From Monosiga brevicollis MX1 (taxonomy: Eukaryota > Opisthokonta > Choanoflagellata > Craspedida > Salpingoecidae), in contig NW_001865044.1 of the NCBI RefSeq assembly GCF_000002865.3, positions 240,162 to 304,161 of the forward strand: DNA of 64,000 bases, given 5' to 3'. Position numbers and translations under genes: made by a program. Positions 31,212 through 50,645 of the stretch are shown piece after piece. The notes under the pieces are model-generated. The model worked only from the letters and a program-made list of their open reading frames with translations, was not told the DNA's origin and made no database searches. Position 1 is the first letter of the stretch; each line of letters starts with the position of its first letter.

Positions 31212-34200
31212 TTAGTAGTCGTGGTCCATGTAGGTGTAGTTCAAGGGCTGCCGCGCCACCTGGATTGGGGCATGTACAGCGTCCGATGAGACGGGGATGT
31301 GAACTGTGGTGCTCGGATAGCCGGGCGCGCTGGCTTCCACAACAATGTCCTGCGCGCCCGAGCAGTCACCGACGTCCACGTCCACAAATCCGCGATCGAG
31401 CGTCACCTAAATTCACAATGATGGATACAATTTCAAATGAAGTTGATGCTGAGTCAGCCGCCAAAGGCAGTCCGTGCAACCAGATGGGGCATCAGCAAAG
31501 CAGGCAACGTACATTGGCTACAAGGCCACGGTGGGCACTAACGCAGTCCAGCGTCACTTGCACGTAAGCGCGCACGAGGCCAAAGTAGGTGGTAGCGTTT
31601 TGCGCCTTGGGGTTGTGCAGGGACATGTGGTCACCATTTCCCACGCCGATCAGGCGGCCTGGGCCGCTGACCACGGCAAACGAGACATTCGCGGAGCTGA
31701 GCGTTACCAACGCCCCCTGCTCGTCCTGCAGGGCCACATGCAGCATGGCCGTGTCCTCTCCGTCCAAGTAAAGGTGCGTGCCCGTGCCCGTGCTGGCCGC
31801 GGGTGCATCCACCACCAACGACAGTTGGCTCGGAGCCATGGGGCCCACCAAAGTGTGCTCAGCTCGCAGTTGATGCTGCTGATCATACCCGCGCGCAACT
31901 AATCTTTGAAACACCGGGGGCGCGGTGCGGGCCGCTCCAACCCAGGTAAGATTTTTAGCCCGACTGCTATTGTAGCATGAAGCAGGCTCATACACGCCTC
32001 GCCAGCAACCCGAGCCATCTTGATACTGCCAAATGGAACAGCTCGCCTCAGCGCAGCACGCTGCCTCGCACGCCGATGCACTCTGGGAAATCGTGTCTTG
32101 CTTCAAACCGTGGCACTGCGTGGTTGCCAAGATGGGAAAGTCACAACCTCCAGGCTTGTTGGAGACGGGCAACGTCAGGGCATTGGACATTCCGACCACC
32201 ACGGCCTGAATCCCGGAGGAGTGATTGTCGCCCACTACTTCCACATAGGGTAGAGAAGAGATGAGGTTGATTGTGGCTGTGCGATTGTCCACTTGAATAT
32301 AATTGGGCAAATCCTCCACGTGCACCAGATCCAGCGATGGCAAGGGCGGGCGCCCGGCGTCTGTGGTGTCCATCATGGCTAGCCAATTGACGCGGTACCA
32401 GTAGGCCTACAAAAAGATTTTCAGTCGTGGTTGTTGTTGTCGTGGTTGGCGCTGCGAGTGAACGGATGGTTGCGAAGGATGTTGGACACGGACGGTATAT
32501 CTGTGCCAAAGGCGCGCACAGCAAAGGCAAAAGGCAGCAAAAACTTACGTGCTGCTTTGGAAACATGGCCAGATCAAATTGCCCAAAGCTGGAGCTGATG
32601 CTGGGGTACGATCCTGCGGGCTCTCCATAGTACTATGGCCACCAACATGAGTGTGTATCAAAGCCAGGCACGAACGAATGGATGGCCCACATTCGAGTCC
32701 AAACGCACGTCTGTCAGCGTCCACACTCCGAGCGAACCCGTGACATAGGGTAGGAGGCCCGGTGAGTTTTGATCACGGATGCACGAGCTGATGAGACGAT
32801 CCTCGGCGGGATTGCGCTGGGAGGTACAACTGCAACACTCGCTGAGCACCGTGGGCTCGGTTGGATACTCGGCATGCCACTGGATGAAGGTGTTGTTCTT
32901 GCTGTGTGAGAAGCCTTGTACGTCCAAGGCGGCTGTAAAGCCGTTGGCTGCCAGGGGTCGCGATGGATCAAGGGCTCGAGCTTGCGCCGAGTATGCAATT
33001 CCGGTTCGGTTATCGTTTTGGTCGCACTCCACTTCATTGCAGTGGCTCCACACGATGATGGACGGGTGATTTCGATCGCGCTTCACTATATCGTGCATTT
33101 CCTACCATGTACTGCGTAAGTGAGGCCCGCGTGCTCTTCCAGTGCCGAAAGAATCATAGGGGCTGGGATACCTGAACATATTCAAGGCCATAGTCACGAT
33201 TCTCATCCCAAACCAGCACGCCAGCAGCATCCAGCATGTCATAGAGCGACTTGCGATACGGATTGTGGCTCATGCGCCAGACTACCGCGATAACAAAGTT
33301 CACAAAAGTTGGCATAAAGCTGGAGGTGCTTTTTAGCGGGCTGGCCTACTCAACGCAACGCCATGCTCGGGAGACGTACTGTTGGCGCCAAGTGCACGCA
33401 GTGATTGAATGCGGACCAAATTCACACGATCCGCCATGGCGACGCCAATCCCAGTCAAACTGTTGTGGTTGCTGAAGCCACGAAAATTCAAGTGCACACC
33501 ATTGTGCCAATACCCACTGGCACCCGTCCAATTAGTGAAACGAAAGCCCGTCTGCGTTTTGGCACTGTCTATTGCAACCGTGTCCAAGAGGAGCGTGGCC
33601 GTGGCCATGTACAGGGTTGGGCGCTGGATGCTCCATAGGCTTGCGTTTGCGACATTCAACAAAGCGTGGCATGTATGGGAGTTGCCCGTCGCCACGGCGC
33701 TCGAGCCAGAGCAGCTGGTCGTGCTCAACACGGTGCCATCAAACTTGCTCACGACAAAAAGCGCCTGCACCCGACTGACATCCACGCCTTGGTCCAGCTC
33801 AAACTCGAGTGATGCCCTCACGGCTTGTTGGCTGATTTCAGGATCAACGAAGAAGCCACCCTGCACGATGGCAGCCATGCGTGGGGCGATGACCAGTTGG
33901 ACCGGGCGGTACAAACCGCCTCCTTCGTACCTGGGACAAAAGCACAATCGCTTTGACTGAACAAGCATGCCATGATGTCGGGGCATATACACGAGACAGA
34001 AGAGCACAGAAGGTGCTTTGGATTTGCAATAAGAAAGTAGAGAGAGGAGAGACATGGCGAATGGGCACTGACCAATGACCACTGCCATAGGATGCGTCAA
34101 CGCGCACGGCTAGAACGTTGTGACCTGTGCGCACGGAAGATGCGTTGTGCAAGGGAACGGTAAACTCGGTATAGCCGCAGCTGTGGGCTGCCAGATATTC

Positions 34201-35217
34201 GCCGTTGAGCCAGATCTGAGCAAAGTGAAAGACCCCCTCAAAACGGAGCAACACCGAGGTGTTGACGAGCATGTCGGAGCTGAGAGCAAAATGCTTTCGA
34301 TACCAGCTGACGTTGCGCTCAAACGAGCCGTGACGAAAGTCATTGTTGGGTGAGAAGTGTGCGTTCTCAATGATAAACTATGCCGAGATGTTACAAGGAT
34401 GGCGACACACAGCAATGTCAAGGCAGCAAAGTGGCAACAAGACAACGCAGCGAAGGATGAGATCAACTGGCTGGCAGCTTGGCAGCGACGGTCGCAGTTG
34501 CAGGCGATCGCTACCGCAATCCTCACGAGGCAACCAACATCATGGGGAGCATCAACAGTTTGCCAGGCGCTATCATCAAGATTTTCGGCGCTGTTGTCAT
34601 AGGATGTACGCAAGGAAGGCACTGATGTACGGCGACCGCCATTCAGGGCTGCGGCCGTGCCATTAAAAGAACAGGTCGAGGTGTTACCGCCATGATAGCA
34701 GCGGCGGTTGCTGGCATCGATGCGCCACTGAAAGAGGCTGCCGTGAGGAGATCCGCTCATGATAGCTGCCTCGGCCAAGAATATCAGCGGCAGTGCCAAC
34801 GTACCACATAGCAGTCTGGGTTGTAGCAGCAGGCCATGGCACAATCATAATCATTCATGCGGTTGGGGTTGGGATATAAATCTGTGCACCTGGGCATGTG
34901 AATCTGATGTCAGCATCGTCGAGTTTTTAAGTTTCGAGCTTGCCCGATACGATTGATGAGGCCATGGAGAAAAGCCTCGGGCAAACACTGGTCAGGGCCA
35001 TCCCCCACGCTTCACACAGGAGGGCGAGCGCTCACGTGTAGGTACCATTGTAGTACTCTTGATAGTCACAGTGAGCATTGGGCCCAGTGCCCCCGTCCGG
35101 ACTGGGGCCGTAGCGAAAGCGCCAGCCGTAGTTGAAGTTGATGACTGTTGCTGCCTGAGCCACCGTAGCCACCGTAGCCACCAAGGCCCACACCAGCACC
35201 ACGCGACGGGCCACCAT
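31212..35217 (-). CDS. Secreted family-2 glycoside hydrolase (beta-galactosidase type) with two Cys-rich inserts
   Basis: Ten exons: 35217-35036, 34889-34805, 34727-34539, 34377-34073, 33930-33380, 33281-33172, 33101-32709, 32632-32549, 32406-31513 and 31406-31212. All phases fit and give 995 aa. A signal peptide (MVARRVVLVWALVATVATVA) is followed by a jelly-roll domain, an Ig-like domain and the TIM barrel. Barrel motifs are RMSHNPY, HPSIIVWSHCNE with the acid/base Glu497, and VLSECCS with the likely nucleophile Glu562, then FGQFDLAMFPKQ. Two similar Cys modules are inserted, at about residues 62-106 and 731-777. Both have C..C-x3-CC-x3-C-x-V/I-W..C-Y/W-x-G..C spacing like PAN/apple-type folds. 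It probably trims extracellular galactosides or related glycans; sugar preference is not shown. An in-frame ATG at 35259 would add 14 residues before the signal. Confidence 0.88.
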
Positions 35218-38466: not shown

Positions 38467-38769
38467 TTAAAGTTGAGCTCTCAACGCCATCCTCGTACCG
38501 TCTTTGCCGTCCTCGGTCTGGAGGCCTGAGGCAAAAGAATGCGGGTCCATACTCAGGCCAATGGATGCGGGGTCATACATGGGCTAATAGTGGACCAAAA
38601 CCAAGAGTGAGATAACCTTATTGCTCATTAATGGGCGGCATTTGATCTCCAGGATGTGCAGAGACTAACCTCGACCGACGAGCGCTTGTTAAAAGCTGGA
38701 TCCCAAGACATGGCACGATGATGACGCATCTGTGGCGCATGGTATTGCTGTTGTTGATGATGTTGTTGA

Positions 38770-38825
<56 letters not shown>

Positions 38826-41800
38826 ATGTTGTTGATGTTGTTGATGTTGTTGGTGCTGGTGCTGTTGTTGCTGATGTTGTTGTTGTTGCTGGTGCTGTTC
38901 TTCATAAAGATAGGAATGGTGCTGATGCTCACCTTGACGAATGTGCTGTTGCGCCAAATCGCTCACCTGGTGCCCAAGTCCAAAGTGCTCGGTGCTCGAG
39001 CTAGAGCCAAGAGGCGTAGCAGCGGTAGGAAGAGACAATCCCCCATCCTCCTGCACCACCGACGTATACGCTGGAAGATGACGGGAAGGCACCAAGGTGC
39101 CGGGGGCCGGTACACGACAGCGGTACACGGGGCGCTCCTGACCATGCGCGTCTGCATTGGCCGTGCCCAGAAAATCCAAGACCAACTCGTGTCCGACTCC
39201 GTAGCTGGCACCGGCCGGAACTTCAATCAGAAAGAGTCCAAGATCATGCAGTTCGTAGTCGGTAACGCCCAGCTTGGCTGATGGATCCGCCGTTGTGCCG
39301 ACCATGGGCATGGGTGTCGCCGCTGCATCGGGGGTCATGGGCATGCCCATACGGCCCAGTGAGTCAAATTCCTCCAAATCTGCATCAAACCCCAGCTCTT
39401 CGTGACCCATGTCCAGATCCAGTGGCATGAGATCATGATCCTGAGCGGAAGATAGGGCCCTGAGATCAAATGCTGTTTCAGAACTCGAGATTTTGCCGTC
39501 ACGACCATCAGCGTCAGGCGCATGAGGCACGAGGGGGGCAGCAGCATCCGCCTGAGCGCTCGAGGAGAAAGCCGATTCAACATTGGCCAGGGAGGTAGGC
39601 ACCGTAGGTGGAGCCGTGCTCGAGGTGGGCGGGGAAGCCATTGTAAACTCGGAAATGGGTGTTGCGGCCATCGAAGTGGGACCGCTTGAGGGTGAGTGCT
39701 CTGGAGGGGCACCACCGCGCCTCTCAGGGCTCGAGTTGGCGGTTGTGGGAAAAGCAAAGCCGTGCCCAAAACCAGAGGGCATGCCGGAGTAGGACTTTGA
39801 GCGCGCATGTCCAGGCGCACCATGATGAGGCACATTCTGATGCCCGTGATACCCGACGGCTTGGTTTGAGTCGCGGGTAGACGCAAGCTCTGCCGACTCG
39901 AGGCCGGTACCTCCGCTTCGGCGCGGCGAAGCCAAGAGCGAGGACCCGCGCTCCGAGACTGCGGGTGAGTCGCGACCCTGAGCTGAGGGAGCACGTGAGC
40001 TCCGCGTGCTCGTCCTGCTTTGGCGAGCCATGTTGAGTCAAGAGAGCGTGAGCGTGAGTCAAGAGCCAGCACACATGCAGCATAAAAATGACACGCCAAC
40101 GTGTGAACAAAGGAGTGCAGGACAACATGAGAACAACGTACAGGTGTCGCAAAGGGGAGCCTTGTTGATCTTGGTTGTACATGGACTGGAGCTGCAGAAA
40201 GTATTCTTGCTGGCGCAGTGCATTGGTGGATGCCTTGTGAGAGAATGGCATGGTGCCGACGAGTCCGGCACCAGCGCCGGCTGGAAGAGTGGAGGTGGTG
40301 GAGGAACGCCCGGCACGGCCGTGCAAGCTTGGAGAGCGAGACCGCTCCATCTTGCGGCTACGACTGCGACTTCGGCTGCGACTCCGAGGACGCCCCATAC
40401 TCCCCATACTCATAATGTCCTCAGGCGTGATCTCAAAAAACTTAAACTCCTTGCGAGGTCGACTACCACTGCCCTTTTTCACCTTGATGCGGTGCTCCTT
40501 GAGTCGATTCTTGACGTGCTGTTGCGGGAGGGCAGTTCCCTGCTGAAATTCGCGTAGCTCTTCGTGCAAAAGAGCGCGTTGCTGCTGGGGCTGCTGGGCA
40601 TAGATCCGCTCACGCAGGTTGCGCTGGGGTAAGGAAGAGCGCCGTTGTACAGCTGTAAGCTGATTGTTCACCTGAATGCGCGCGGCGGCAACCTGTGCAA
40701 TTTGCTCATCTTCTTCCAAAAGGCCCTGAGTTTTGCCCTCAAGCAAGCGACTCTCGGCGTGTTGTTCGATGGCATGGCGCACAATGTGCGGATGCTCTGG
40801 CCGTTTATTGAACACGGCCGTGGACTGCACGACGAGGGGTGGTTGCGTCCAGGATGGTGAGGGCAGTTCGAGATCGAGCTCAGTATCCATCTCCGGCTCT
40901 GACGGATGCAGAGCGGGGAGTTGGTGGCCGTGCAAGGATTTGGGCGGTGCCTCTGGAACAGAAAACTGAGAGTGATGGTGGTGGTAGCTGGGTCCGGAAC
41001 TCGAGGTGATGGCCGCGTGCGAGACGGCGGGACCGTTTGAAGAGGTTTCAGCTGAAGAGTGAGAGGGTACAAAACTGAGGGGCGCGTCCTCCAAAGGCAC
41101 GCTGGTAGACTGAAACTGCAGATGAAAGGGCTGCCCGGTGTGATCGGCATAGCTCAGGCCGGCATCGGATGTCAGGGGAAAAGTAGGATCTGCGTCGCCG
41201 GTAGATGACCAGCTTGGTCGCGTCGCCACCGGGCGTCGTGCAGCGGCTGAGGCCCCATCTGCACCTCGCTGTGGCGTCTGAATGGGAATGACATCCCCAG
41301 ATGGGGTGCGATACATGCGGGCCTGCCAGCTGCGCCGTTGGGAAGCGGCTGCGCGACTGGCATCAGAGGCTTCACCAGAGGATGCAGCGTGGTGAAAGTG
41401 CGGCGGAAGCGGTGGGGCCGGCGGTGCCTCGGCACGCCTTTGCGCATCGTGTCCCAGCACATCCATGTGAATGGGCTCTTCTTGGAGGAGGTTCAGGATT
41501 GGATCTCGAGGATGCAGAATGTTCGCCGACATCTACATGGGGAGGTGGCCTGAGATGAGAGATGTAAAGAGAGGACAGATCCGCACTGCGTGGTGGGGGG
41601 GAGGGGGGCACCCACCAAATCGAGCGGTCCTGGGCGCGCTTCAAGGTGGTCTTGCAAAACATTTTGAATTTGCTGACGCTGGAAAAATTGCTGACGAACA
41701 GCAATAGCAGGGGCCACGGATGATGCCACCGACGCTACGAGTTGAGCACCAGGTGGATGAGCCGAGAAAAGTAGGAAGGGCAATCGCCACAGGAAGGGGT

Positions 41801-42422
41801 TTTAAGAATATTGGGATTGAAGAAGGCGCGCTGGGTGGGAACACACTTTTGAGAATGCCAACATTTTCCAGGAACTGTGGTGTTGGTCGTGCGGAGAGAC
41901 CCTTTTGGAGCGTCTCAGACACTTTGGTATAGCGCGGCTTGTTGACAGACTCTGGGCTGGGAGGATCTGGTGGTGGGTACACAGGAAGAACATGGTGATA
42001 AAGGCGGGGGTGCAGTGTTGCGAAGCAAAGGAGCTTGTGTAGGTTGATGACAAGACAACCGGGTAGACAAAACTCACCTCGGATGATGTTGCGCTGAATA
42101 AGCTCTTCCTTGGTGCGGCGTCGATCGAGCTGGCGGCCCACGGCTGAAACAGTGCAGGCAGGCGACGGTGAGTGTTGGCAGTGGCAAGCACAACTGGATG
42201 AAAATTGGGCCGTCACCCCACCCCCGCCTTGTGCTGAGAACCTCGCGATTTCCAGGCCGCACCTTCTTTGGCATCAAGAATGGAGGGAAACTGCGTGTTG
42301 GGGGATGGTCCTTGCGTTGATTCAAGTTCATCCTCGGGCACCTCTAGGAATTGTGTATATTCGGTTGTAGTCGGCGACGCCATGGCCTGAGCACCGTCCT
42401 GCGTGGAGGACGGCATTGACAT
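38467..42422 (-). CDS. RPEL-repeat, MRTF/MKL-like transcriptional coactivator
   Basis: Seven exons: 42422-42263, 42143-42078, 41951-41847, 41734-41616, 41532-40142, 40017-38670 and 38583-38467. All phases fit and give about 1101 aa. Three RPEL actin-binding motifs appear in MRTF order. The first is RRRTKEELIQRNIIR, like the degenerate first RPEL of MRTF. The second is LQKGLSARPTPQFLENVGIL. The third is LEARPGPLDLMSANIL. Further on are a basic stretch with KEFKFFEITPED, resembling the B-box, an RS-dipeptide run, Ser/Pro-rich segments, an acidic stretch (LDLDMGHEELGFDADLEEFD) that could be an activation domain, and a long Gln/His tract. No SAP domain was seen. In animals MRTF is held by G-actin through the RPELs and activates SRF when actin polymerises. 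The exact start is open: the first exon may extend to 42527. Confidence 0.75.
38740..38905. repeat. (TTG)n / poly-Gln-coding tract
   Basis: TTG, TTGATG and related triplets on the plus strand; on the minus strand this is CAA/CAT encoding the Gln/His-rich segment of the MRTF-like protein. Pure TTG units dominate at 38776-38816, and TTGATGTTG-type units at 38817-38850. Confidence 0.9.
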
Positions 42423-48568: not shown

Positions 48569-49285
48569 TTCTTCTCTTTCTTCCTCTTTTCTATGGCAGC
48601 CCTCTGGATTTGGCGGCGGGCTGCTCTTCGATCGGGTATTTTCCATCTTCGCTGCGGGGGTTTGAATGCATTCACCTCTTGATCCATGTTTCATCTTGCT
48701 CCTGCTTGATTGCCAGCTCCATTGGCTTCTCTTTCCCTGTTTCCCTGTCTCGGATCTCCATCCACACATCACACGCTTAACCACCACTTCCCAATCTCCG
48801 TGACACTTGGCGCTGCCACCGCACCTTTGGCCGGCTGCCATTTACTCTCCCTCTCTCTCCTCTTTTCCCTTTGCAACGGAATCAAACCGTTTTGTTCTGA
48901 TTGCTTGCCCTGGTGAACTCCGGCGCTCTCCTGCGCTTTTGATCTCCCTCCTGTCATTTTCGTCGCCTGATTGCTTGCCCGACACTGCCGTTCGGCCCAC
49001 CACATTGATTGATTTCTTCTGGTGGCAGACTCGCGTACCTTTGGTGCCTCGATCCTTTGAGGCGATTTGATGTCGTAACCCTGGTGTTGCTTCACACACT
49101 GCTGTGGCCTGGAATTCCACCAGGTCGCCCTTTTCACTTGAATTATCCGGGCGCTCCCCTCAACTCTCCTACCTCTTCCTGCTTCTACGACTACCACTGC
49201 GGCTGCGGCTGCGGCTCACTTCAACAACTACTTTTCTACGACAGCGCCCCACTGACTTTGTCCATCGCGCTTTGCACCCATTGCC
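46581..49285. other. Repeat-rich intergenic region
   Basis: A 2.7-kb region between PSMB6 and the forkhead gene. It holds an A run at 46740-46760, (GT)n at 47181-47224, a palindromic AATTCGAATTCGAATT at 47507-47522, five CAGT units at about 48119-48139, (TTG)n at 48364-48430 and (CT)n at 48504-48562. The last 400 bases are CT-rich leader of the forkhead gene. Frames here are short or repeat-derived, and no gene is supported. Confidence 0.6.
48364..48562. repeat. (TTG)n and (CT)n tracts
   Basis: About 20 TTG/TTGCTG units at 48364-48430 and about 29 CT units at 48504-48562. Confidence 0.95.
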
Positions 49286-50645
49286 ATGGCTGCCGCCGCC
49301 AACTGGCAGGACGATACGAGTGTCGCCGCCGCCGCCGCTATTGCCGCTGCCGAAAACTACATGTCCACCATACCCTTGCCTGCCGGTGATGGCTTCCCCA
49401 CCCTGTCCAGTGCCGACTTTGACATCCCTTCCTCCTCTGCGGCCAGTGCCCACGGCGCCTCCGCCTATCAACCATCACTGCCGAACACAGCTCAACCCGG
49501 CGTACGACCCCCATCTTACTCATCTGCTGCTACGCCTACCGAACCCGGCTCTCCGCCCCATCGCAGCAGCGCCACCATCGTTCTCGAGGCCAACGATGTT
49601 GATGAGGAAGAAGATGGCAAGCCTGCCCTCAGCTACGCCAAACTCGCTGCCCTTGCCATTGACGCCGCCCCCCAGGGCCGTGCCACGGTCGCCGACATTT
49701 ACAAATGGGTGCAAGAAAGATACCCCTACTTTCGCCACGGGAAGCCCTGGTGGAAGGTACGAGGCATTTGGTTTTTTGTTTGGTTTGGTTGTTGGTTTTC
49801 TTGGTTTTGTTTGGTTTTGATGCGGGGTCAAGGGCCGCTCGCCTTGTACACCTGCGCGGCCACTCACCAACCTCGGCTTCCGCCCCTCCCCTTTTCCGCA
49901 GAACTGCATTCGTCACAACCTTTCCATGAAGAAATGTTTTGTCCGACAAGAAGGCACACGCGGCAGCAACTTTTGGAGCCTCCACCCTGATCACCGCTCA
50001 GAGATTCTTCACGCCAAGAGCCCCCGTAACCTCTCACGCAAGCGACGTCGTGCCTCCATGCACGCCACTACCACCACCACCGCTGCCATCACCAACACAA
50101 CGTCCTCGTCCTCATCGTCGGCAACAGCCTTCGACACGAGCAGCCCAACACCTTCTCCCCAGGATCAATACACCGAGCCGCTTGTGGATCAGTTGCGCAG
50201 CGTCGGGCCTCCCCTCGCCACTGGGGCCGCACACCTGTCCCCCGACCTTCGCCAAGCCACGGCCCGCCCGCCCCTGCCTGACCATCTCCTGGCCACCGCC
50301 TCGTGGGCTACTGCTGCCGATGCCACCTTTGCCGACACCACTTTTGATGCCGCCAGCGACATGATGACCGACGTCGAGGACCTGCTGGCTGAAGCCACCT
50401 CCCCCGTCTTGTCCGCATCAGACGCGCTTCTTCCCCTCCTGAACACCGAGGAGACAGATGCCCTTCTCAACGCCACACTCAACGCCTTCCCACCCAACGC
50501 CTTCCACAGCGAACTCATGGCCAACGCGTCGTGCGTCTCACAAGTGCCTCCCGCCAGTCCGCTGCCCCCAGTCCGCCTGCCCGATGCAACCTCGTGGCTC
50601 CAGCCTGTCGGCGCCCTGGATCTGCCCGATTTGTCGGTCTTTTGA
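49286..50645 (+). CDS. Forkhead (FOX) transcription factor
   Basis: Two exons, 49286-49756 and 49902-50645, in phase and giving 404 aa. The forkhead domain is split by the intron: KPALSYAKLAALAIDAAPQG, ATVADIYKWVQERYPYFRHG and KPWWK, joined to NCIRHNLSMKKCFVRQ, where the N-x-x-R-H-x-x-S recognition helix is intact, and then GSNFWSLHPDH. A basic stretch (SRKRRRAS) follows and is a likely nuclear signal. The N-terminus is Ala/Ser/Pro-rich; the C-terminus has acidic and hydrophobic patches (MMTDVEDLLAEA, LLPLLNTEETDALL) like an activation region. The subfamily is not assigned; the wing lacks the usual basic run. Confidence 0.92.

Follow-up and report, generated by a model that had tools for sequence, protein, structure and literature searches.

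Does a single-celled relative of animals possess the actin-sensing coactivator through which animal cells inform their genes about their cytoskeleton? In animals, MRTF is the sensor of free actin and, with SRF, turns on actin genes; through the MRTF-SRF pair, transcription responds to the condition of the actin cytoskeleton. Choanoflagellates are the single-celled sister group of animals, and a stretch of 64,000 nucleotides from the choanoflagellate Monosiga brevicollis MX1 (contig NW_001865044.1; its full length is called the window here) holds a gene that a sequence-only reading had proposed to encode an MRTF-like coactivator with three RPEL motifs. We find this MRTF-family reading partly supported and likely: the gene quite probably encodes a divergent, SAP-less, actin-sensing coactivator of the MRTF/myocardin family.

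In our splice model, the gene lies on the minus strand from a start codon at 42422 to an in-frame stop that ends at 38628, in six exons without a stop in 1,081 codons; the extent first proposed, 38467..42422, was therefore correct to about 160 bases. All five introns have GT-AG borders, and one of them interrupts RPEL3. Splice sites were picked by eye and by reading frame, without transcripts, and the exon 4 acceptor is the least certain of them. Of seven candidates tried for this acceptor, four keep the long frame, giving proteins of 1,081 (chosen), 1,053, 1,049, and 1,046 amino acids, and the three shorter choices remove part of the RPEL2-3 linker or of RPEL3. The features are as follows.

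42263..42422, minus strand: exon 1 of the splice model, aa 1-53, with the start codon at 42422
42078..42143, minus strand: exon 2, with RPEL1 (RRTKEEL, aa 62-68) at about 42135-42078; best Pfam RPEL stretch, aa 57-76
41847..41966, minus strand: exon 3, with RPEL2 (RPTPQFL, aa 102-108) at about 41913-41851, from Pfam and the phmmer alignment
41616..41734, minus strand: exon 4, acceptor uncertain, with the RPEL2-3 linker and the first half of RPEL3 (RPGPLDL, aa 149-155) at about 41660-41616
40142..41532, minus strand: exon 5, with the second half of RPEL3 (MSANIL, 41532-41515), a linker, and the B1-like and Q-box-like stretches
40408..40506, minus strand: B1-like basic stretch with KEFKFFEITPED, aa 498-530, followed by an Arg-Ser repeat; assigned by order and look
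40165..40218, minus strand: Q-box-like stretch LRQQEYFLQLQSMYNQDQ, aa 594-611; its score against a provisional reference is reached by 0 of 5,000 shuffles
38628..40017, minus strand: exon 6 with the stop codon; Ser/Pro-rich region, acidic stretch, and Gln/His tract
39351..39467, minus strand: acidic-hydrophobic stretch, aa 803-841, a candidate activation region by composition
38745..38897, minus strand: Gln/His tract, aa 993-1043, distinct from the MRTF Q-box

Two other genes were noticed in the window. A forkhead transcription factor gene occupies 49256-50645 on the plus strand; Pfam Forkhead is matched in exon 1 (5.3e-11), and the domain, judged by eye, runs on into the next open reading frame after an intron. 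A glycoside hydrolase family 2-like gene lies at 31492-34844 on the minus strand, where the open reading frame 31492-32406 matches Glyco_hydro2_C5 (2.4e-13) and, weakly, PAN_4 (0.021), and the frames up to 34844 were assigned to the gene by eye.

The three RPEL motifs in MRTF order stand. Pfam RPEL matches the 1,081-aa protein with an E-value of 3.1e-9 (36.7 bits; the cut-off is 23) over three stretches, each single stretch having been admitted at a loose E limit of 10, and the alignment to MRTF-A runs across all three. RPEL2 is degenerate (RPTPQFL), with F at the usual E position. Successive repeats are spaced 40 and 47 residues apart, compared with 44 and 44 in MRTF-A. In phmmer searches of PDB sequences, the three-repeat region with its linkers aligned to MRTF-A chains when the first 632 residues were the query (1.3e-6). 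A 138-aa query confined to the RPEL region returned seven distinct sequences at E 10: four MRTF-A/MAL chains (1.4e-7, 3.7e-7, 4.5e-7, and 4.2e-5), Phactr1 (0.37), and two unrelated sequences. The E-value for the RPEL region is thus about six orders of magnitude better for MRTF-A than for Phactr1, in a match that takes in the linkers and not the motifs alone.

Scored singly, the motifs give a mixed picture, in which only RPEL3 discriminates for MRTF (its score is 49 with MRTF RPEL3 and no higher than 25 with any of the three Phactr1 RPELs). RPEL1 scores 49 against Phactr1 RPEL2 and 43 against MRTF RPEL1, and RPEL2 scores 38 against Phactr1 RPEL2 and at most 26 against any MRTF RPEL. These two motifs speak for a rival reading in which the gene encodes a separate RPEL protein, either Phactr-like or unclassified, that would bind actin without acting together with SRF. 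Against that reading stand the result for the whole RPEL region and the distribution of the Phactr C-terminal, PP1-binding domain. For aa 1-632, no Phactr chain of any kind was returned at E 1, and no Phactr C-terminal chain matched either aa 1-632 or aa 620-1081 at that limit. The domain sits instead in another gene of the genome (L014, C32:529922), where an RPEL-like motif of 18.8 bits, below the Pfam cut-off, is followed by a part that matches the Phactr chains of PP1-Phactr entries (C-terminal chain of 6zee, 1.2e-8). Since this second gene matches Phactr chains and the window protein does not, MRTF-like and Phactr-like genes appear to stand side by side in the genome. The original assignment to MRTF and not Phactr accordingly holds for the RPEL region as a whole (1.4e-7 versus 0.37) and through the separate Phactr-like gene, but not for RPEL1 and RPEL2, which singly are nearer to Phactr1. 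Overall we regard the separate RPEL protein as unlikely.

In the genome (39.47 Mb in 57 contigs), one exon of the UNC18 gene (L007) is identical at 47 of 49 aligned residues, all but the first and the last, to PDB 2XHE (5.1e-25, with 1e-12 for the next chain), which PMC3693963 gives as an M. brevicollis entry; from this single exon, the source would be M. brevicollis or a very close relative. An RPEL search of the genome returned no place at E 0.001 and seven at E 10: RPEL1 and RPEL2 of the window gene, the Phactr-like gene, and L015, L016, L018, and L019. RPEL3, split by its intron, is absent from the seven. By eye, L016, L018, and L019 look like chance and were rejected as RPELs. L015 (C44:143346-143402, minus strand) is a possible further motif, KLSLRSDSEALTQRNIL, of 18.1 bits; it too is below the cut-off and may be a real RPEL exon.

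The linker between RPEL2 and RPEL3 bears on how such a protein might be controlled. It has 2 Lys/Arg in 25 residues (aa 116-140). The aligned MRTF-A linker contains QLKLKRARLADDL, whose basic residues are mostly absent from the window protein; we take the QLKLKRAR residues of that linker to be an NLS element. With so few basic residues at this place, and given that presumed role, control through an NLS within the RPEL domain would seem weak here.

Outside the RPELs, the likeness to MRTF lies in a basic stretch followed by a Q-box, the order found in MRTF-A. The Q-box-like stretch follows the B1-like stretch in that order, with an Arg-Ser repeat between the two. Scored against a provisional MRTF-A Q-box sequence, the 18 residues of LRQQEYFLQLQSMYNQDQ reach 48, a value attained by 0/5,000 shuffled proteins and 0/5,000 shuffled motifs; for a 10-residue core of the same provisional reference, the figures are 1/5,000 and 13/5,000. 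Together with RPEL3, this stretch in MRTF order argues against the separate RPEL protein. The B1 peptide printed in the available part of PMC3933235, KKAKELKPKVKKLKYHQYIPPDQKQD, served as reference for the basic stretch, and here the statistics are different. In ungapped scoring, aa 498-530 (containing PRKEFKFFEITPED) reaches 17 for the 16-residue B1 core, second to a C-terminal His/Gln-rich place at aa 979 (18), and the best score in the protein is not beyond chance, being reached by 2,126/5,000 shuffled proteins and 2,549/5,000 shuffled motifs. A 12-residue version fares likewise (1,282/5,000 and 1,187/5,000). The B-box-like stretch of the sequence-only reading is therefore not significant on its own and rests on order and look; a B1 region is suggested by position, not by statistics, and this too favours the separate RPEL protein. 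A genome search with the B1-Q region returned the gene itself (1.1e-168) and two weak matches (0.26 and 0.348).

No SAP domain was reported in the 1,081-aa protein at E up to 10 in the Pfam search, in agreement with what had been read from the letters, and a pattern search for the leucine heptad L-x6-L-x6-L-x6-L found none in the window protein. The missing SAP counts in favour of a separate RPEL protein as well. It does not exclude SRF coactivation, because in Mkl1, according to the available text of PMC3933235, B1 is required for SRF binding and SAP is a separate route. With no detectable SAP and an RPEL2-3 linker that carries few basic residues, the favoured MRTF-family protein may be controlled more at the level of its nuclear activity, or the basic B1/RS region may serve as an import signal.

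The C-terminal half has the acidic character first ascribed to it, with 13 D+E and 2 K+R in aa 800-850, and the acidic-hydrophobic aa 803-841 are a candidate activation region by composition. The Gln-rich tract of the sequence-only reading is real as a Gln/His tract (aa 993-1043), but it sits close to the C-terminus and does not correspond to the MRTF Q-box, whose likeness is at aa 594-611; what was first noticed may thus have been this different, C-terminal run. Two kinds of match in this half were taken as low-complexity: Pfam TFIIA (E 0.0011; 19.5 bits, with a cut-off of 36.2), which covers the Gln/His tract, and weak PDB matches of aa 620-1081 (best 0.14, TFIID subunit 10). Folding the C-terminal segment that begins SAKLGVTDYEL from its single sequence gave a poor model (mean pLDDT 45.4), which was set aside.

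A search of the same genome for an SRF-type MADS protein yielded one SRF/MCM1-type exon. The SRF-TF search returned four places; it proceeds exon by exon, and further genes may be missed. Among them, L003 (C54:41007-41147) matches SRF (2.5e-10 and 3.4e-10) and MCM1 (3.5e-10), three distinct PDB sequences at E 0.001, with no MEF2 chain at that limit in the same search, and is the only SRF-type MADS exon found. Its likeness to SRF can be seen in GSDVLLLVATEDGSIFT versus GTQVLLLVASETGHVYT, whereas the DNA-binding basic part of its MADS box is divergent (AKRRKALMKG versus SKRKTGIMKK). L001 and L002 are both MEF2-type by best PDB match (5.1e-11 and 6.4e-9), and the fourth place is weak and below the cut-off (0.0476). 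The two MEF2-type exons lie head-to-head about 1.3 kb apart (C43:272431-273918).

A candidate target is L020, the actin gene (a single open frame) that best matches the actin profile. Upstream of it stands a perfect CArG box, CCAAATATGG, at -233 from the profile match and about 227 bases before the ATG. The expectation from window composition is 0.048 CArG boxes per kb; the loci examined, 114,270 bases in all, hold 8 matches, a number that includes the actin site and some matches in loci that overlap. We counted exact matches to CC[AT]6GG no more than 600 bases upstream of the ATG, with range and gene families fixed before the follow-up. One of ten cytoskeletal genes had a box in range, namely actin, whose site had been inspected beforehand and is not an independent part of the count; four ADF/cofilin-domain, three profilin, and two gelsolin starts had none. 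The ATG was the farthest in-frame one, except that L040 and L052 had none and the profile match was taken as start; both have matches farther than 600 bases away (-1187 and -712). The count did not take in further gelsolin-domain places, which lie on C55, C54, and C44. Among nine other genes (the SRF-type, two MEF2-type, two Sec1, three actin-related, and the Phactr-like gene), of which only Sec1 and actin-related had been named as controls beforehand, none had a box within 600 bases; for the actin-related L022, only about 216 bases of sequence were available above the ATG, and the actin-related L023 has a match out of range at -753. The actin CArG box is suggestive as a single site and does not amount to a regulon.

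Separately, two gelsolin-repeat genes (L045-L052; C24:51733-53715, minus strand, and 118001-119974, plus strand) lie inverted about 64 kb apart with matching repeat layout, in what looks like an inverted duplication.

The MADS and CArG results also bear on a second rival, in which the protein is an MRTF-family coactivator partnered with one of the two MEF2-type proteins and not with SRF. Vertebrate myocardin contacts MEF2 via an N-terminal segment, which we count against this reading, as we do the presence of an SRF-type protein and of an actin gene with an SRF-type CArG site. On the other side are the closeness of the two MEF2-type MADS exons on C43 and, in the accessible part of PMC5167519, the description of Myocardin:Mef2 as a core of pre-metazoan ancestry. 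We judge partnership with MEF2 in place of SRF to be very improbable.

For the favoured actin-sensing MRTF/myocardin-family coactivator, we infer a mechanism in which, under the predicted splicing, the three RPEL repeats would most likely bind G-actin, and the coactivator would be released as actin polymerises. The B1-like and Q-like stretches would then contact the SRF-type MADS protein of the genome, and the acidic C-terminal half would activate transcription. Actin is the best candidate target gene, which would close a feedback loop. A bolder version would hold that the pre-animal actin-MRTF-SRF loop was stripped-down, its coactivator having only three RPELs, B1, and Q and lacking both SAP and an RPEL-domain import signal; in it, G-actin would chiefly affect coactivator activity, and the actin gene would be a target via its CArG box. 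We consider this version doubtful; if it were true, nuclear-import control and SAP-dependent targets would be animal additions, or else losses in this lineage.

That the factor predates animals is not a new claim. The sequence-only reading was right to place it outside animals, but the pre-metazoan ancestry of myocardin is already stated in the available part of PMC5167519, citing Steinmetz 2012, which limits the surprise. In the portions available, PMC9287330 describes a sponge MRTF and involves MRTF in contractile tissue from sponges upward, naming no choanoflagellate MRTF; for musculature, PMC7934905 groups actin, Mef2, MyHC, and myocardin under Eukarya in a table; and in PMC3305314 MRTF occurs solely in the title of a cited work. 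Within the partial coverage of our search for MRTF, myocardin, or MKL1 with choanoflagellates or Capsaspora, no description of the window gene was found. With the general pre-animal origin already published, the present analysis adds the gene as such, its missing SAP, an RPEL2-3 linker of weakly basic character, and the CArG box upstream of actin. Now that there is a definite choanoflagellate gene, together with SRF- and MEF2-type partner candidates and an actin CArG box, the pre-animal origin of the circuit can be tested directly, and the missing SAP suggests which parts arrived later or were lost.

Among known systems, the MRTF that the sponge Ephydatia muelleri has in single copy is close by description, as far as the available part of PMC9287330 goes. 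Phactr (phosphatase and actin regulator) shares RPEL repeats, and RPEL1 and RPEL2 of the window protein are best against Phactr1 RPEL2; as a difference from Phactr, no Phactr C-terminal chain matched the window protein at E 1, the domain being in L014. From MRTF-A, the window protein differs in that neither a SAP domain nor a leucine-heptad zipper was found, in an RPEL2-3 linker poor in basic residues, and in an RPEL2 without the Glu of RPxxxEL, as well as in its Arg-Ser repeat between the B1-like and Q-like stretches and its long Gln/His tract near the C-terminus. What it has in common with MRTF-A/MKL1 of mammals is three N-terminal RPELs at similar spacing, the RPGP form of RPEL3, a basic and then a Q-box-like stretch in the order of that protein, and an acidic C-terminal half.
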